Shown here: positions 6,482-21,013 of the stretch, piece by piece
Layout: every line of letters starts with the position of its first letter
How positions within the stretch are numbered: the first letter of the stretch is position 1
NCBI GenBank assembly: GCA_016841245.1
Contig: JAENZN010000001.1
Coordinates: forward strand, 1-64,000
DNA: 64,000 bases
Reading direction: 5' to 3'
Source: Syntrophomonas sp.
GTDB taxonomy: Bacteria > Bacillota > Syntrophomonadia > Syntrophomonadales > Syntrophomonadaceae
The notes under the pieces: model-generated
The model's input: only the letters and a program-made list of their open reading frames with translations
Databases searched by the model: none
What the model was told of the DNA's origin: nothing
Position numbers and translations under genes: made by a program

Positions 6482-7435
6482 TTGAAGAATGTAGGCAACC
6501 AGTCAAAACGTCTCTCAGTTTCCATTGCGTTAATACTATTTGCTATAAGTGTTATATTTGTAAGTCCCTCATCGGTCATGGCATTAACTGTCAACTATGC
6601 CATCTCTACCTCTGTCAATACTGACAGCCTGGTTTATAATTATAAGCTTGGTGAGGATAGTTCTATCGGCACATCGCTTATTAATTCCTCGGTAGATAAC
6701 GCATCCACAGCTACCCCAGAGGTAGTTACTCAAATGGACTCGGCAGAAATTCAAAACCCCCAAGCAGATGTAAACATAGAGACTTTAGCAGCAGGTACTA
6801 AATATGCTACCGACCTTTACATTATCGATAGCGGAAAACCTGGTCCGGTGGTGCTGATAGTGGGCGGAGTACACGGCAATGAAACTGCCGGGTATACTGC
6901 AGCTGCTGAAGTAACAGACTGGCAGATAGACAAAGGAACCCTGCTGGTTCTCCCTCAAGCAAATAAACTGGCCATTAACAAGGAAGTCAGGTATTTAAGC
7001 AGCGAAGGAGATCTTAACCGGGATTTTCCGCAGGCTTCCAACGAGAGTGCGGATAATGCTTTATCAAAAGCTATCTGGTCAGCATTAAAGAAATATGATG
7101 TTGACTGGCTTATGGACATGCATGAAGGTTATGATTATTACAAAAACACTTCTACCAGTTCAGTAGGTCAAAGTCTCATTTATTATCCTAACAGCAGCAC
7201 TAAAACAACAGCTTCTGAAATAGTCAGCACTTTGAATCAAGGTATCAGCACTTCTTATAAGAAATTCAGCCTGCTTCAGTATCCCGTCAAGGGCAGTCTG
7301 GCGCGCGCTGCCGGACAATACCTGGGAATACACAGTTTTATATTCGAAACCTGTGATAATCCCAGCCTGTCGATCCGGGTCAATTATCAACTCAAGGCGG
7401 CCAAAACTCTTTTACAGGAATTGGATATGATGTAG
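6482..7435 (+). CDS. Secreted M14/aspartoacylase-like zinc peptidase
   Basis: The TTG at 6482 follows AAGGAAAGG. The N-terminus is a signal peptide (basic MKNVGNQSKR, hydrophobic 11-34, cleavage near VMA-LT). A poorly conserved 60-residue segment follows, then a domain of the succinylglutamate desuccinylase/aspartoacylase (M14-like) family. The zinc ligands are readable: GGVHGNE (H131, E134) and MDMHEG (H214). GDLNRDFP (about 177-184) supplies the substrate-binding Arg, and FIFET (E289) is the likely catalytic glutamate. It is expected to cleave an amide or peptide bond outside the cell, perhaps in cell-wall or carboxypeptidase chemistry; the substrate is unknown. It has a close tandem paralogue downstream. 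Confidence 0.85.
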   Translation: MKNVGNQSKRLSVSIALILFAISVIFVSPSSVMALTVNYAISTSVNTDSLVYNYKLGEDSSIGTSLINSSVDNASTATPEVVTQMDSAEIQNPQADVNIETLAAGTKYATDLYIIDSGKPGPVVLIVGGVHGNETAGYTAAAEVTDWQIDKGTLLVLPQANKLAINKEVRYLSSEGDLNRDFPQASNESADNALSKAIWSALKKYDVDWLMDMHEGYDYYKNTSTSSVGQSLIYYPNSSTKTTASEIVSTLNQGISTSYKKFSLLQYPVKGSLARAAGQYLGIHSFIFETCDNPSLSIRVNYQLKAAKTLLQELDMM

Positions 7436-7681: not shown

Positions 7682-8479
7682 TTGAAAATTGTAAGCAAAC
7701 CGTTAAAACTAGTATATATTTTCCTGGTATTATCAATATTCATTATAGTTTCCATATTTGCACTTTCAGAATCGGTCCTGGCAGTCACTTACAGCAACCA
7801 GACTTCTTCTGCAGGAGTGACTATAGAGACTTTAGCTTCGGGCAGCAAATATGCCACAGAGCTTTATATAATTGATAGTGGTAAGCCTGGTCCGGTAGTA
7901 ATGATCGTGGGAGGAATACATGGCAGCGAAACTGCTGGTTATACTGCCGCAGCAAAAGTTACAGACTGGCAGATAGACCAAGGAACCCTGCTGGTTCTCC
8001 ATGAAGCAAACAAACTGGCTATTGACAAGAATACTAGATATGTTAGTGGTGAGGGGGACCTCAACCGGGACTTTCCCCAATCTTCCACGGAAAATGCTGA
8101 CAATACTTTATCCAGGGCTATTTGGTCTGCTCTAAAAAAACATGATGTTGACTGGCTGATGGATATGCATGAAGGTATCGATTATTCCAAAGCCTCAAGC
8201 TGCTCAGTCGGGCAAAGTCTGATATATTATCCGGAAAGCAGCACTAAGTATTTAGCCGGCAAAATTGTTGCTGGTCTGAATAAAAATATCAGCACCTCAT
8301 ATAAAAAATTCAGTTTGCTTGACTACCCGGTTAAGGGCAGTCTGACTCGTGCTGCCGGACAATACCTGGGAATACACAGTTTTATATTCGAAACCTGTGA
8401 TAACCAACTCTTATCAACTCGGGTTAATTACCAGCTCCAGGCTGCCAGAACTCTTTTGCAGGAGCTTGACATGATGTAA
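7682..8479 (+). CDS. Secreted M14/aspartoacylase-like zinc peptidase, paralogue
   Basis: A tandem paralogue of the preceding gene. It has 265 residues against 317, because the segment between the signal peptide and the catalytic domain is nearly absent. A signal peptide covers about residues 1-35 (cleavage near VLA-VT). The zinc ligands are H80 and E83 (GGIHGSE) and H163 (MDMHEG), with GDLNRDFP and the catalytic E238 (FIFET). The TTG start follows AGGAATGGAATGA. The 70 bases before both genes are also alike (CTGCAGGA, ACATATNTTGACGAA), so the duplication included the promoter. Both domains keep all key residues and are probably active. Confidence 0.85.
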   Translation: MKIVSKPLKLVYIFLVLSIFIIVSIFALSESVLAVTYSNQTSSAGVTIETLASGSKYATELYIIDSGKPGPVVMIVGGIHGSETAGYTAAAKVTDWQIDQGTLLVLHEANKLAIDKNTRYVSGEGDLNRDFPQSSTENADNTLSRAIWSALKKHDVDWLMDMHEGIDYSKASSCSVGQSLIYYPESSTKYLAGKIVAGLNKNISTSYKKFSLLDYPVKGSLTRAAGQYLGIHSFIFETCDNQLLSTRVNYQLQAARTLLQELDMM

Positions 8480-8489
8480 GTATAATGAA

Positions 8490-10142
8490 CTAGTAGACCA
8501 TTATCGCTCTGCGCACACCACCAGGAGCAACTATCCTCCCCTGAGTACCCGTATCCCCGATAGGTCCGGTATCCTGAGGTTGATTCTGAATAACCACCGA
8601 GTTTCTGGTAAGATTCTCAACCCTGCTAACATTTATGACGCTGCTCCTAGTGCTGCGGCGGCTTCGGCTGGATCTGTCTGTTGGTCTTCTATCACTTGAT
8701 CGACTTCTACCTGAAGTCACACCTGGTGTTGACATGGTATCTCCTGAATCGTCGGGCAGATGACGCGAGTTCTCCAGGGCTGCCCGGCTGTTATTTCGCT
8801 TGCTGCCGCCAGTGATGTTCCAGCCTTTTCTGATGTCCATTTTTTCGTCCCACTGTATGTCGTTTTTTATCATCCAGTATATTATTCCTATCTCTTCAGC
8901 ATATTTATCGAATAATTTAGTATATTCCAAGTCCTTCCATATATTTTCAAAATCCTTCATGAAATAATCTCTATCACCCGTATAAAACGCCTGTTGAGCT
9001 TCAGCGATATTTAAATAATTATTTTGCAGCTGCAGATAATTACTGGCCACAATTTTGGCCAGGCAAATCACTGCGGTAGCGATTCTCTGAGACATAAGCC
9101 AGCTTCCAGGAGTTCTATATTCAAACCCCCCGTAATCTTTTTCCCGGTAATCACCCAGGAAACCGTATTTTTTTCTCCTCCTGGCAGCGGTATGAGGTTT
9201 TTCTATCATAAACACCAGCAGACCAACATAATTATCCAGAGCTCTCAAAAGTGCTGCGTTTAGGTTTACATTACTAAAGTGAATATGCCCTCCTATAGAA
9301 TAACCTGCTACTGGTTGACTGCCCGCCACCCATTTTACATTCTTATAAGGAGCCATTGAATTGGCTCTGGTAAGAGCATATCTAAGATTTCCAATCAGCT
9401 GTAGAGGAGATTTCTCAGGTTTAGGCCTTAATTCAGCTACCGGCCGCTGCTGACGGTTAGGCAGCCTTATATTATCGCATCCCACTATACCCTGAACCGG
9501 AAAGAAATGTGATGCTGAAACCAGTTTTCCGGTGCGGTTATTGATGATCATAAATTCGGGATCAGCTCCAAGTTTAACCTCTCTCTTCTTGCAATCATAT
9601 ATCTTATCCAATTCATCTATCAGGCTGCTGATGTCTTTATCTCTCAAATCAGGACATGGATCTACTCCAATTACCTGCAGCCTTTTTCTGCTATTTAACT
9701 GAATTTTTATTACCGCCAGATCGAGACCGGATAACAGGAGAGCTCTTTTAGCTATTTCTGCCACCCGGGATTTCTGGTTTTCCCGCATATATTTTGTCTT
9801 ACCACCGCCCTTTCCCAGAACCTTCTGGCGAATAAATATGATTTTCATATCAAAAAGCAGAGCCTCGTATATCTTTGATGCTTCTCTATCCTCCGGCCCG
9901 GCATGGACCCGGTTTAATTTCATAACACTTAAGATGTTGTCCGGGTCGGTGCAGCGTTTAATCGCCTGCGGGTGGTTTATGGTTCGTTCGAATCTTGCTT
10001 TTTCATTTCCCAGGTTTATGTTTATATAGTTGATTTCTCCCAGGGTAAATTCATCCCAGCTTACTTCTTGCCAATGAGATTTAATCCCTTCAAGCAGTTT
10101 ATTCCCCATTTGATTGTTCTGATATACTACCTTAAGCTTCAT
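8490..10142 (-). CDS. Amidoligase (COOH-NH2 ligase) with Ser/Arg-rich tail
   Basis: I place the start at the ATG at 10142 (MKLKVVYQ), which follows GGAAAGGA; the frame stays open to an ATG at 10175 inside the previous gene. The central part (about residues 190-400) matches the glutamine-synthetase-fold amidoligase family: VKLGADPEFM, VAELRPKP, YSIGGHIHFS and YGGFEYRTPGSW carry the acidic/His metal-ATP site. An N-terminal region of about 180 residues is ATP-grasp-partner like. The last 100 residues are Ser/Arg/Asp-rich and disordered (for example SRSSDRRPTDRSSRSRRS). It overlaps the upstream YheC/D-like gene by 11 bases, so the two are translated together. The family is thought to form amide bonds on peptides; the substrate here is unknown. 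Confidence 0.75.
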   Translation of the reverse strand: MKLKVVYQNNQMGNKLLEGIKSHWQEVSWDEFTLGEINYININLGNEKARFERTINHPQAIKRCTDPDNILSVMKLNRVHAGPEDREASKIYEALLFDMKIIFIRQKVLGKGGGKTKYMRENQKSRVAEIAKRALLLSGLDLAVIKIQLNSRKRLQVIGVDPCPDLRDKDISSLIDELDKIYDCKKREVKLGADPEFMIINNRTGKLVSASHFFPVQGIVGCDNIRLPNRQQRPVAELRPKPEKSPLQLIGNLRYALTRANSMAPYKNVKWVAGSQPVAGYSIGGHIHFSNVNLNAALLRALDNYVGLLVFMIEKPHTAARRRKKYGFLGDYREKDYGGFEYRTPGSWLMSQRIATAVICLAKIVASNYLQLQNNYLNIAEAQQAFYTGDRDYFMKDFENIWKDLEYTKLFDKYAEEIGIIYWMIKNDIQWDEKMDIRKGWNITGGSKRNNSRAALENSRHLPDDSGDTMSTPGVTSGRSRSSDRRPTDRSSRSRRSTRSSVINVSRVENLTRNSVVIQNQPQDTGPIGDTGTQGRIVAPGGVRRAIMVY

Positions 10143-11481
10143 ATTTTCCTTTCCCATTCTTCTTTCGCGCCGCATATATAAAATAGTCGGTAAGGTTCTG
10201 CAGATGTTTCTTTCTTATATCATCTTCATCAAAACTGGACGGTTTTGAATTCACTTCCAGAATCCATATTCTTCCATACGAGTCAATCCCTAAATCCATG
10301 GTAAGAATCCCCAGATTAATTCCCAGCTTTTCTTCTAAAAGCCCTGGCACCAGGGTAGTAATTCCCCTTAACTGCTGATGTATTGACTGCCTGATTCGAA
10401 TGGCAGGAAAGACCCGGGTTATAACCTCATCAAAAACCTCGGCCCGGCCTCCATTGGGTATATGAGTTACGAATCTATCCTTGCCGGCTACCCTCACCGC
10501 TGCCCCGGTAAGAATCCATTCCCCATGGAGATTTTTCTGCATCTGACTGCGTACGTCAAATAATCGGGAGTTATATCTGGCTAGATCAACCGCCTGCTGT
10601 ATCAGATAATTTCTTCGCAGCACTTCACTGGATAGCTGGCGATACAACAGGTTAAAAGTATAAGGGCCTTTCCAAACCGGAGCTGTGGAGCTAGCCCCGG
10701 CAAAACAATAGCGCCCTGGAGGTTTACAAATGATCTTAAATATTCCCCGTCCAATTGAACCATCATTTGGTTTTATGAATAACGCTGGATATCTTTGCAG
10801 CATAAGCTCTAAATTGTGGCGGTTATATATTTCGCTGTCTGGTATCATGTTTTTTGCCTCAGGATGTTTTTTTAGGGCATTATATACTTCTTGTTTATTC
10901 AAGAAACGGCTGTTAAAAACATAAACCCGTTGGTCTCCATCCATTTCATAAAGTAGTCTGGTAATCTCCTGCTGCTTTTCTATCTTCCTGAACCGAATCC
11001 GGTTATAAATAACATCCGGCCACGCAAAGGTTCCTGCTTTCCAGGAGTTATGTCCGGTGGTTATTCCCCGGATATATCGATGATCTTTAGATATTCCTTC
11101 CGGTCCAAAAAGATATACGAATATTCCTCTCCTACCCGCGTATTCAATCATCTCTTTGAATAGCTTACCGGTTTTACCATGAGGCAGACTTCTATTTCGG
11201 ATGGCGCTGGTCATTACTCCAACTACTGGTCCAATTAGTAGTTCGTTTTTACTGCCGGCATAAATCAGATATTGAAAACCCGGTAATTTAAGTTCTCTGG
11301 CAGCACCTCTGTTTAATATTGCAAAATTTACAGGCATTGGGCTGTTTTCTGATACTATAGATAATTTTGCTGTACAAGATAAAGATCCGGCCTTGAGCTG
11401 AACCAGGCTGTTGACCGGTGCGTTTTTCAGGATATGGGGGTTTAGTTTAATTGCTGGTGAACAGGAGTCCATTTTCTGCAT
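10132..11481 (-). CDS. YheC/YheD-family ATP-grasp protein
   Basis: The 449-residue protein has the YheC/D architecture. An N-terminal beta domain (about 1-110) contains LLIGPVVGVMTS, followed by VIYNRIRFRKIE, FNSRFLNKQEVYNAL and the ATP-grasp core (FIKPNDGSIGRGI, nucleotide-binding Lys; later DLGIDSYGRIWILEVNSKPS with acidic metal ligands). In Bacillus these proteins are endospore coat-associated; their reaction is unproven but ATP-grasp enzymes ligate carboxylates to amines. The start is set by AGAGGGG. It is translationally coupled to the amidoligase gene, suggesting both act on one substrate. Confidence 0.85.
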   Translation of the reverse strand: MQKMDSCSPAIKLNPHILKNAPVNSLVQLKAGSLSCTAKLSIVSENSPMPVNFAILNRGAARELKLPGFQYLIYAGSKNELLIGPVVGVMTSAIRNRSLPHGKTGKLFKEMIEYAGRRGIFVYLFGPEGISKDHRYIRGITTGHNSWKAGTFAWPDVIYNRIRFRKIEKQQEITRLLYEMDGDQRVYVFNSRFLNKQEVYNALKKHPEAKNMIPDSEIYNRHNLELMLQRYPALFIKPNDGSIGRGIFKIICKPPGRYCFAGASSTAPVWKGPYTFNLLYRQLSSEVLRRNYLIQQAVDLARYNSRLFDVRSQMQKNLHGEWILTGAAVRVAGKDRFVTHIPNGGRAEVFDEVITRVFPAIRIRQSIHQQLRGITTLVPGLLEEKLGINLGILTMDLGIDSYGRIWILEVNSKPSSFDEDDIRKKHLQNLTDYFIYAARKKNGKGKYEA

Positions 11482-11598
11482 TTTATAACCCCTCTGATTT
11501 TGTTATATTTCATTTTATGAATAATGATAATATCCGGTGCCTGTTAGCACAACAAAATAGAGCCCGCCAGTCAACACCCGGAATTTTAAAGAAAATAA

Positions 11599-14085: not shown

Positions 14086-14309
14086 ATCAAATCTATCCCT
14101 TCAAAATCGAATTCAAATTTCATTATATCTTTAGGTTTCCTAAAACACCAGTGTTTCGTTATTCTTTTCACTGTATTTATTTTATCTAATTTTTACGCTA
14201 AATTCTAATAATCTACAATATTATATATCATGCTTAACATCTGACATATATTCACGTCATATTACATTTGCTTAATGCACAAGGTATAAAAGGAGGTGAT
14301 CAATTAATA

Positions 14310-14906
14310 ATGCCGATATTGACGCATTACAGCCGCATAGGGTTAAATAACATTAATACTATACCGGAAACCGTTAGTGAACTGTATCATTTGGGAATGG
14401 AGTTTAATGACCATATTAGTAAGAATTTAGATGATATTTATTCTGCGGTATCTGATGCATATGAAAAAACCATAAAAAATCTGCTGTATTATCAGCAAGT
14501 GGAAAAAACCAAACTTATAGAACTATTGCATAACGAAATAAACTATTGTGATAGAGCTTTCTATGATCGAAAAAAAACCTCTATTACCGTTTATAGAAGC
14601 AGCAGGTATGATTCTGCCAAACCAAATACCTTTTTTAAAAAATCCCTGGATACTTTTACTGAAAGACTAAACAACTTTAATTATATCTGCCGTGAACATA
14701 AGGATCTTAGCGAGGTAGATTTATTGATCCTATATCTTGGACTCAGGGATTACTGCGCTAATTTCTACCAGCAGATGGGGATAAATTATTATGATAAAAA
14801 CATGATGAGTACCTGTAAAGAAATGGTGGTTCTGATTGACCGAGTCAGCGATGATATCGGTCTGGCATATATGAGTCAAAAACAAAATAACCCGGAGCAA
14901 GAATAA
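14310..14906 (+). CDS. Uncharacterised helical protein
   Basis: I choose the ATG at 14310 because AGGAGGTGAT lies at 14291-14300; the frame is open to a TTG at 14268. The 198-residue product is hydrophilic and mostly helical, rich in Tyr, Asn, Asp and Lys, without signal peptide or membrane segment. Segments such as TVSELYHLGMEFNDHISKNL suggest helical packing. I recognise no family. It converges on the PH-domain gene, with a shared terminator that overlaps its stop codon. The perfect ribosome binding site suggests high expression. Confidence 0.65.
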   Translation: MPILTHYSRIGLNNINTIPETVSELYHLGMEFNDHISKNLDDIYSAVSDAYEKTIKNLLYYQQVEKTKLIELLHNEINYCDRAFYDRKKTSITVYRSSRYDSAKPNTFFKKSLDTFTERLNNFNYICREHKDLSEVDLLILYLGLRDYCANFYQQMGINYYDKNMMSTCKEMVVLIDRVSDDIGLAYMSQKQNNPEQE

Positions 14907-19412: not shown

Positions 19413-20783
19413 CTAGGAATCACTTGACCGGGTCTTAACCGGGAAACCAGCCAGATAGGATCCATATTCCAGCGGTCTTTTAAATGAATTGCGCATAATA
19501 ATTTGTGATGCCTCAGTTTCGGTAGTTTTTCGGGGCTTCGAATTGACTTCTATCAGCCAGGGCCAACCCTTTTTATCTATCCCGATATCCAGCCCCAGTT
19601 CTCCAAAATTGCCATTGCTTTCTGCATCCAGAGTAACTGCCACTCGCTGGCAGAGCTCTTTTATCTCAGCATTCTTTTCTTCGATCAGGCTTTTCTTTTT
19701 ATAAAGGGATTTTAATAAACTCCTGCTGGTGACCACTCGCCCTCCCCGGCTGAGATTTGAAATACTGCTTCTTCCTGGAGCTATTCGGGCAAATTTTTTG
19801 CCGATCTGCCATTCTCCACGGCCATTCTTCTGATAAATAATTCGAATATCAAACACCGAACCATGATATCTGGTCAGGTCCAATCCCTGCTGTACGATAT
19901 ATGGTTTTCCTTTTCGATATACGCTGGTCTTTTTCATTATTTGGCTGGCATTATCGGTACTGCCATTAATCCTGCTCCGAGAGTATACCGTAAACTTCAG
20001 GTTGTTCTCGCCCAGTTTTTTAACTTTGATGATGCCAATACCCAGGCTGCCATTACTCGGTTTAAGGTACAGCACACTATGTTTGCTCAGCATCTCTGCC
20101 AGGCTCTGTTCACTTAATTTTTGGGTTTCCGGTAAATAAGGTTTCAGGAATAGATTTTGGGCAAGGGTTTGATAAACCTGCCATTTATTGAGATATGATG
20201 GGTTGAAAACTTTAGTATAGGGCTGTTCCTTCAGCATTTGCAGGGTTGATTGAACATTACTTCTGATTTCACTTCTTCTGCTGGATATTCGATTATATAC
20301 TACATCGGGCAGCGGATAGGTGGATGATTCCCATACTCCATGGTTGGTGCTTAAATATCGGTAATTATAACCCTTTACAGTCTTACTGCTCCAGTTTATT
20401 GATGCCGGCAAAAATATATAGACCATCCCGTCGATGCTTCTGCCAATATGGCTCAAATAGGTTAATTCTGCCTGCAAGCTGGTAGGATCTAATTCATCTA
20501 ACTTAGCCCGGTTGGGCAGAGCTGTGGCCAGTATCCCGATTACCGGTCCCAGATGAATCATATTCTCTTCACAATCATATCTCCATCGGAGTTTCTTTCC
20601 GCCCTTAAGGTGCATTTCTCGATCCAGGGAGGGTGATGCGCGGTATCCACTCACATCATCCTTTATTTTTAATTTACTTTCGACTACTATGCCTCCCACT
20701 CTAACTTTGACTATATTCACCCGGGGTACATTATATTTAGTTGCTAGTCTTTCTGAAATACAAATTTCTCTTGTCATAGACAT
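19413..20783 (-). CDS. YheC/YheD-family ATP-grasp protein, second copy
   Basis: The 456-residue protein has the same architecture as the gene at 10132-11481 but is only moderately similar. Matching motifs include HLGPVIGILATA, DGMVYIFLPASINW, DVVYNRISSRRSE, FNPSYLNKWQVYQ, LYLKPSNGSLGIGI (ATP-grasp Lys) and DIGIDKKGWPWLIEVNSKP (metal-binding acidic/Asn residues). The N-terminal 70 residues hold an extra beta domain (ICISERLATKYNVPRVNIVK). It stands alone without an amidoligase neighbour. The family is endospore coat-associated in Bacillus; the reaction is unproven. GAGGTTGATGG precedes the ATG. Confidence 0.85.
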   Translation of the reverse strand: MSMTREICISERLATKYNVPRVNIVKVRVGGIVVESKLKIKDDVSGYRASPSLDREMHLKGGKKLRWRYDCEENMIHLGPVIGILATALPNRAKLDELDPTSLQAELTYLSHIGRSIDGMVYIFLPASINWSSKTVKGYNYRYLSTNHGVWESSTYPLPDVVYNRISSRRSEIRSNVQSTLQMLKEQPYTKVFNPSYLNKWQVYQTLAQNLFLKPYLPETQKLSEQSLAEMLSKHSVLYLKPSNGSLGIGIIKVKKLGENNLKFTVYSRSRINGSTDNASQIMKKTSVYRKGKPYIVQQGLDLTRYHGSVFDIRIIYQKNGRGEWQIGKKFARIAPGRSSISNLSRGGRVVTSRSLLKSLYKKKSLIEEKNAEIKELCQRVAVTLDAESNGNFGELGLDIGIDKKGWPWLIEVNSKPRKTTETEASQIIMRNSFKRPLEYGSYLAGFPVKTRSSDS

Positions 20784-21013
20784 CCATCAACCTCACTCAA
20801 ATCAAAATCAGCCAGATGTGGGGCATATAACAAGGGTGTTTTCTGGCTGCTTCGAGCAGTAATCATTATAAATTCAGGCATGTTGATACCACCGTTTTAT
20901 ACAGTTTTGTACCTTATAATATGAAATAGGCTTCATATTTGATAATATTAATAACGTAACGTTTGATCCTTTTCTTTCTTGATCAAAGAATACTAAAGAT
21001 GGAGATGAATCTA

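Follow-up and report, generated by a model that had tools for sequence, protein, structure and literature searches.

The ATP-grasp family YheC/D (PF14398) is linked to spore-wall modification by Pfam itself, and to our knowledge no enzyme activity is known for its Bacillus subtilis member YheD. This coat protein self-associates strongly and forms shells around the forespore (PMC7911427), and yheC and yheD belong to the sigma-E regulon, where they are stimulated by SpoIIID (PMC517825). ATP-grasp and COOH-NH2 ligases had been found linked in operons before, as a later paper recounts; linked peptide ligases often act successively, and pairs of these two types are thought to build soluble peptides (PMC4431377). 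Here we analysed such a pair in the first 64,000 nucleotides (the window) of contig JAENZN010000001.1 from Syntrophomonas sp. (GCA_016841245.1), where a gene for a YheC/D-type ATP-grasp ligase (P0002) leads a gene for a COOH-NH2 ligase, or amidoligase (P0001). We interpret the two proteins as a late mother-cell enzyme pair that would form amide bonds on or for spore-coat components, and give this reading a probability of about 0.6. As judged from the comparative evidence below, a spore-coat location and late mother-cell timing are very likely, amide chemistry directed at the coat is somewhat better than an even bet, and our confidence in any specific product is far lower.

The family assignments of a preliminary description of this DNA, an amidoligase-fold enzyme next to a YheC/D ATP-grasp, were borne out by Pfam matches above the curated cut-offs (features are listed in Table 1). 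P0002 matches PF14398 (ATPgrasp_YheCD) over residues 187-435 with E=3.4e-64 and 217 bits (cut-off 26.8), and P0001 matches PF14395 (COOH-NH2_lig, phage phiEco32-like type 2) over residues 191-443 with E=4.3e-103 and 344 bits (cut-off 25). An NCBIfam search gave no match, and searching solved structures by sequence returned nothing useful; fold comparison was required. The ligase open reading frame (ORF) can be opened from 10175 (8490-10175, minus strand), and the start kept in relatives is 10142 (MKLKVV..., 550 amino acids (aa)). With this start, the overlap of 11 bases between the genes described earlier is exact. Such an 11 bp overlap is by itself ordinary operon spacing. The pairing, however, occurs far above chance, since the ATP-grasp gene lies directly upstream of the ligase gene in 39 of 40 Syntrophomonadaceae loci; the gap between the two was measured at 28 loci and ranges from -11 to +24 bp. 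Syntrophomonas wolfei (L093) has this locus too, and the relatives found assign the organism of the window to Syntrophomonas. In addition, among 101 relatives, counted from two tables, YheC/D was present in 51/51 genomes with the ligase versus 15/50 without it.

Both proteins retain the residues of active enzymes. In an alignment of 140 YheC/D homologues, K237, Q295, D309, R311, D396, E409 and N411 show 97-100% conservation. P0002 has every one of them and thus keeps the ATP- and metal-binding residues of the family. In P0001, D194, E196, E237, R239, H286, H288, R322, R323, E341 and R343 are invariant across 59 homologues down to ~30% identity. Loss of catalytic residues, which the preliminary description had named as evidence against its proposal, was therefore seen in neither enzyme. 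Foldseek comparison of full-length P0001 matched glutamine synthetase (GS), YbdK and plant glutamate-cysteine ligase, as well as the COOH-NH2 ligase of Salinivibrio phage CW02, in agreement with the PF14395 assignment. From its family and residues, P0001 is predicted to form amide bonds at the expense of ATP. The ratio of nonsynonymous to synonymous substitution rates (dN/dS) within the genus is 0.06-0.08 for the ligase domain and 0.12-0.14 for the N-terminal domain considered below; on these ratios, both folded domains are under strong purifying selection. This conservation bears on the idea that the proteins are mainly structural coat components, like self-assembling YheD, with enzyme activity ancestral or incidental. 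The strong self-interaction and shell formation of B. subtilis YheD (PMC7911427) speak for it, as does the fact that one domain of P0001 has already lost its catalytic residues. A structural role, however, needs no catalytic residues, whereas those of YheC/D and of the GS fold are invariant or nearly so in distant homologues, and we regard this explanation as improbable.

The domain that has lost its residues occupies the N-terminus of P0001 and was overlooked in the preliminary description. Residues 1-189 gave zero Pfam matches, even at E=10. Modelled alone with 48 homologues, they nevertheless adopt a confident fold with a predicted local distance difference test (pLDDT) score of 92.6, and all 50 PDB matches listed by Foldseek are ATP-grasp-fold proteins. 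Those named include MdnB, RimK, ArgX, PsnB, D-Ala-D-Ala ligase and biotin carboxylases, with E values from 7e-7 to 9e-5 and template modelling (TM) scores over the query of at most 0.65. Alignment to the YheC/D family profile with hhalign gave a suggestive probability of 62%. At the positions of D396, E409 and N411, which bind the metal in YheC/D, P0001 has K146, G159 and D161. Because these three positions vary among homologues, we call the domain a pseudo-ATP-grasp rather than an active ligase. In the predicted structure, P0001 is thus a degenerate ATP-grasp domain fused to a GS-fold COOH-NH2 ligase, and we infer that the dead domain may dock the active YheC/D enzyme.

Timing is indicated by the region upstream of the lead gene. 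A search for SigE or SigK boxes before position 11481, as proposed in the preliminary description, recovered a conserved sigma-K-type element, ACCGGATATTATCATTATTCATAAAAT, while sigma-E patterns before the lead gene found no support. The element combines a -35 AC and a -10 CATAAAAT separated by N17, as in the sigma-K pattern of AC and CATAnnnT at ~16-18 bp spacing. Clostridial sigma-K promoters likewise carry a -35 AC and a CATA-type -10 very like that of sigma-E, for example CATATAAT before sigK (PMC3789822). This block is preserved within the genus, and its flanks much less so. AC-N17-CATAnnnT occurs in 36 of 39 Syntrophomonadaceae leaders, which are homologous and hence not mutually independent, versus 0.71 on average, and never more than 4, in shuffled leaders. 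With looser spacing, the element was found in 32/37 leaders versus 7/235 upstream regions of other gene classes at the same loci. The motif is not enriched in the window (3 matches, 3.1 expected), so the evidence for the promoter lies in its conservation among relatives and not in its rarity. The genome also encodes sigK, with a match above the curated cut-off.

We then turn to the wider distribution of the ligase. When 84,980 species genomes were scanned, 471 relatives came to light, of which the best 80 were retained. A ligase ORF was detected at 37 loci outside Syntrophomonadaceae, including L112, whose record says Syntrophomonadaceae and which is of the family f2 type. The outer-coat morphogenetic gene cotE, first recognised as a neighbour cluster in three more distant relatives and confirmed by PF10628, lies no more than 6 kb from the ligase gene and on its strand at 24 of these 37 Bacillota loci; six of the cotE calls were rechecked with Pfam and all six were positive. 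YheC/D genes are present at 28 of the 37, in 27 cases two or more of them, and either cotE or YheC/D at 35. In Ammoniphilus, the order is miaB-x-cotE-ligase-mutS. cotE is absent from Syntrophomonadaceae. The enzymes there therefore cannot depend on CotE, and CotE cannot be the sole possible substrate. In a phylum sample of 250 genomes, SpoIVA was found in 33/33 genomes with the ligase and in 215 (86%) overall (Fisher p=0.007, uncorrected for relatedness), and the genome studied here has a SpoIVA gene. Together, the conserved sigma-K-type promoter and the cotE adjacency in other Bacillota favour the relation to the spore coat suggested earlier. A phage origin was rejected: tblastn gave 0 matches in 50,697 phage records, and the only viral loci were two distant ones in IMG/VR. 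These contigs, L152 and L153, encode short proteins of 265-277 aa that are related to the ligase domain.

The same neighbourhoods bear on whether the pair instead makes a small peptide or polyamide, a storage compound or protectant, in the mother cell, for deposition in or around the spore without bonding to coat proteins. Pairs of this kind are believed to build soluble peptides one amide bond after another (PMC4431377), the small-molecule enzymes YbdK and glutamate-cysteine ligase are among the closest solved folds, and where a cluster has several YheC/D genes, these could attach several residues. Yet genes for transporters, amino-acid-modifying enzymes or precursor peptides were not seen to cluster consistently with the pair, the neighbours outside Syntrophomonadaceae being mostly unannotated, and the recurrent partner there is cotE, which encodes a coat morphogenetic protein. 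Among ORFs of at least 60 aa, no conserved short one that could be a graspetide precursor with a repeated core was seen beside the pair. We consider a small product that is not bonded to the coat rather unlikely.

P0001 ends in the Ser/Arg-rich stretch of about 100 residues noted in the preliminary description, which measures 107 aa, contains 17 Ser and 17 Arg (48% S+R+N+T) and is disordered in the model, with pLDDT mostly <50 over residues 461-550 and a confident folded part (mean 85.7). Close to the C-terminus, G-R-[ILV]-x...-[IVT]-R recurs in 17 of 32 homologues. The long form is found only in Syntrophomonadaceae, where it differs strongly among members; in the related families examined, 4-27 residues extend beyond the domain. 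The tail has no match among the other proteins of this genome, which, together with its shortness in distant homologues, marks it as a lineage-specific extension. Its dN/dS of 0.28-0.44 within the genus reflects the weakest purifying selection in P0001. The tail had been proposed as a substrate or an anchor. As it is confined to Syntrophomonadaceae and evolves faster, a role as the general substrate is not supported, and anchoring or retention in the coat is possible and the most economical guess. Could the tail still accept amino acids itself, so that the ligase would be a coat protein that tags itself? It is a disordered segment attached to an amide ligase, and in Bacillus, Ser/Arg-rich coat proteins such as CotB and CotG are modified by the CotH kinase, a gene for which is present in this genome. 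But the enzyme is conserved where the tail shrinks to those 4-27 residues, the tail holds one Lys only and few acidic residues, and selection on it is relaxed relative to the rest of the protein; self-modification is thus highly improbable. Phosphorylation of the tail by CotH, by analogy with such coat proteins, is conceivable.

The surrounding genes are conserved as well. The wider block comprises a YchF-like GTPase, a PH-domain protein, a 3-hydroxyacyl-CoA dehydrogenase, a phosphofructokinase, a DegP-like protease and another YheC/D unit, and is mostly housekeeping. Inside it, on the opposite strand, lies a 212-aa ORF (14268-14906) that was detected in the genus only and has zero Pfam matches. 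The second YheC/D unit is a tandem pair in most relatives, and the strain in the window has lost the first of the two genes. Set beside L161 and L032, the window runs from the upstream region and initial codons of copy 1 straight into copy 2 (19413-20783), with the junction around 20837-20840; a sister genome has kept both copies. The conserved element upstream of this unit reads AGCAAA-N14-CATATTAT in most relatives (L157-L175); its sigma factor assignment is uncertain, and it differs from the sigma-K element that precedes the first unit.

On the other side, two AstE/AspA-type (M99-like) hydrolase genes stand in tandem and run convergently towards the ligase gene; such a gene lies within 6 kb of the ligase in 31 of 40 Syntrophomonadaceae loci. 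These hydrolases might hydrolyse an amide product or might be unrelated neighbours. They also raise the question of vegetative cell-wall or capsule modification of a teichuronopeptide-like kind, with no link to sporulation: the adjoining hydrolases are secreted and lack sigma-K elements (1/36 upstream regions), and both enzyme families occur in other envelope contexts. Set against this are the sigma-K-type footprint, the cotE linkage and the restriction of the ligase to SpoIVA-bearing genomes in the phylum sample, which make a purely vegetative role very improbable.

Table 1 Features of the ligase pair and its neighbourhood in the window
Feature	Position	Strand	Details
YheC/D-type ATP-grasp ligase P0002, lead gene	10132..11481	-	449 aa, PF14398
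COOH-NH2 ligase (amidoligase) P0001	8490..10142	-	550 aa, PF14395
Degenerate (pseudo) ATP-grasp domain of P0001	9576..10142	-	residues 1-189, predicted structure
GS/GCS-fold COOH-NH2 ligase domain	8814..9572	-	residues 191-443, PF14395 E=7.7e-104, Foldseek
Ser/Arg-rich disordered tail of P0001	8493..8813	-	residues 444-550
C-terminal motif GRIVAPGGVR	8511..8540	-	residues 535-544, end of tail
Putative sigma-K-type promoter ACCGGATATTATCATTATTCATAAAAT: -35 AC, N17, -10 CATAAAAT	11512..11538	-	consensus match, conserved
Second YheC/D ATP-grasp, same conserved block	19413..20783	-	456 aa, PF14398 E=9.9e-78
Upstream element of second YheC/D unit: ATCAAA-N14-CATATTAT	20912..20943	-	by eye, ~15 relatives
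Secreted AstE/AspA-type zinc amidohydrolase, convergent neighbour	7682..8479	+	PF24827 E=2.4e-15
Second AstE/AspA-type hydrolase copy	6482..7435	+	PF24827 E=1.7e-15

From these observations we infer a mechanism in which both genes would be expressed as one unit in the mother cell, late in sporulation and under sigma-K. Each of the two enzymes, the YheC/D ATP-grasp and the GS-fold ligase, would spend ATP on activating a carboxylate and joining it to an amine, and the two would act jointly, probably docked through the dead ATP-grasp domain of the ligase. The amide bonds formed on or for the coat could be a side-chain tag of an amino acid or oligopeptide, or cross-links, and in Syntrophomonadaceae the disordered tail would most plausibly retain the enzyme in the coat. 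Several points weigh against this interpretation. The -10 elements of sigma-K and sigma-E are alike, and the putative promoter is a consensus match and not a mapped start. As Syntrophomonadaceae have no cotE, the linkage argument reaches the window through homology. The co-occurrence with SpoIVA is weak, because 86% of the sampled genomes carry SpoIVA anyway. In addition, B. subtilis YheD might be purely structural, gene-neighbourhood inference cannot identify the substrate, and the evidence on this pair comes from sequence and predicted structure.

A broader proposal, which we make tentatively and at somewhat less than even odds, is that many spore formers beyond the B. subtilis lineage possess an undescribed ATP-dependent coat-modification system, in which a pseudo-ATP-grasp/COOH-NH2 ligase and one to four YheC/D enzymes would write isopeptide tags or cross-links late in the mother cell. 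The system would centre on cotE in Bacilli and related clostridia and do without it in Syntrophomonadaceae. If true, it would account for the activity of the YheC and YheD coat proteins, complement the known transglutaminase cross-linking with a route that uses ATP, and perhaps shed light on how clostridia assemble a coat in the absence of CotE. That YheC/D genes are linked to cotE as well as to a dedicated amide ligase provides a testable hypothesis, namely that enzymatic amide-bond formation takes part in coat assembly.

Both enzyme families and, in general, their operonic association are already known (PMC4431377). The cotE linkage, the sigma-K footprint and the pseudo-ATP-grasp domain were not found in the open-access literature searched, an absence that is not proof. 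B. subtilis YheC and YheD are products of sporulation genes and belong to the same PF14398 family as P0002. P0002 differs from them in being translationally linked to a COOH-NH2 ligase, which is absent from all 14 control genomes, B. subtilis included, and in having a sigma-K-type promoter where yheC and yheD have sigma-E and SpoIIID. With the phage phiEco32-like type 2 ligases, P0001 shares the full-length domain, the invariant catalytic residues and the CW02 fold; unlike them, it is cellular, occurs in spore formers and is fused to an N-terminal pseudo-ATP-grasp. The graspetide ligases MdnB and PsnB, together with RimK, are the closest solved ATP-grasp folds to that N-terminal domain, which in contrast to them has no conserved metal-binding residues and no graspetide precursor gene seen nearby. 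B. subtilis Tgl, a transglutaminase, likewise makes isopeptide bonds in the spore coat (PMC6490927), but it belongs to an unrelated, ATP-free enzyme class and offers an analogy only. A further comparison is with the cotE-linked clusters of Tumebacillus, Sulfoacidibacillus, Thermoactinomyces, Thermincola and others, which have the same two families on the same strand and the same fused ligase. Beside the ligase, these clusters have cotE, several YheC/D genes in tandem, or both, and in those examined the tail is short, whereas the Syntrophomonadaceae form, with no cotE, combines one adjacent YheC/D gene with the long Ser/Arg tail.

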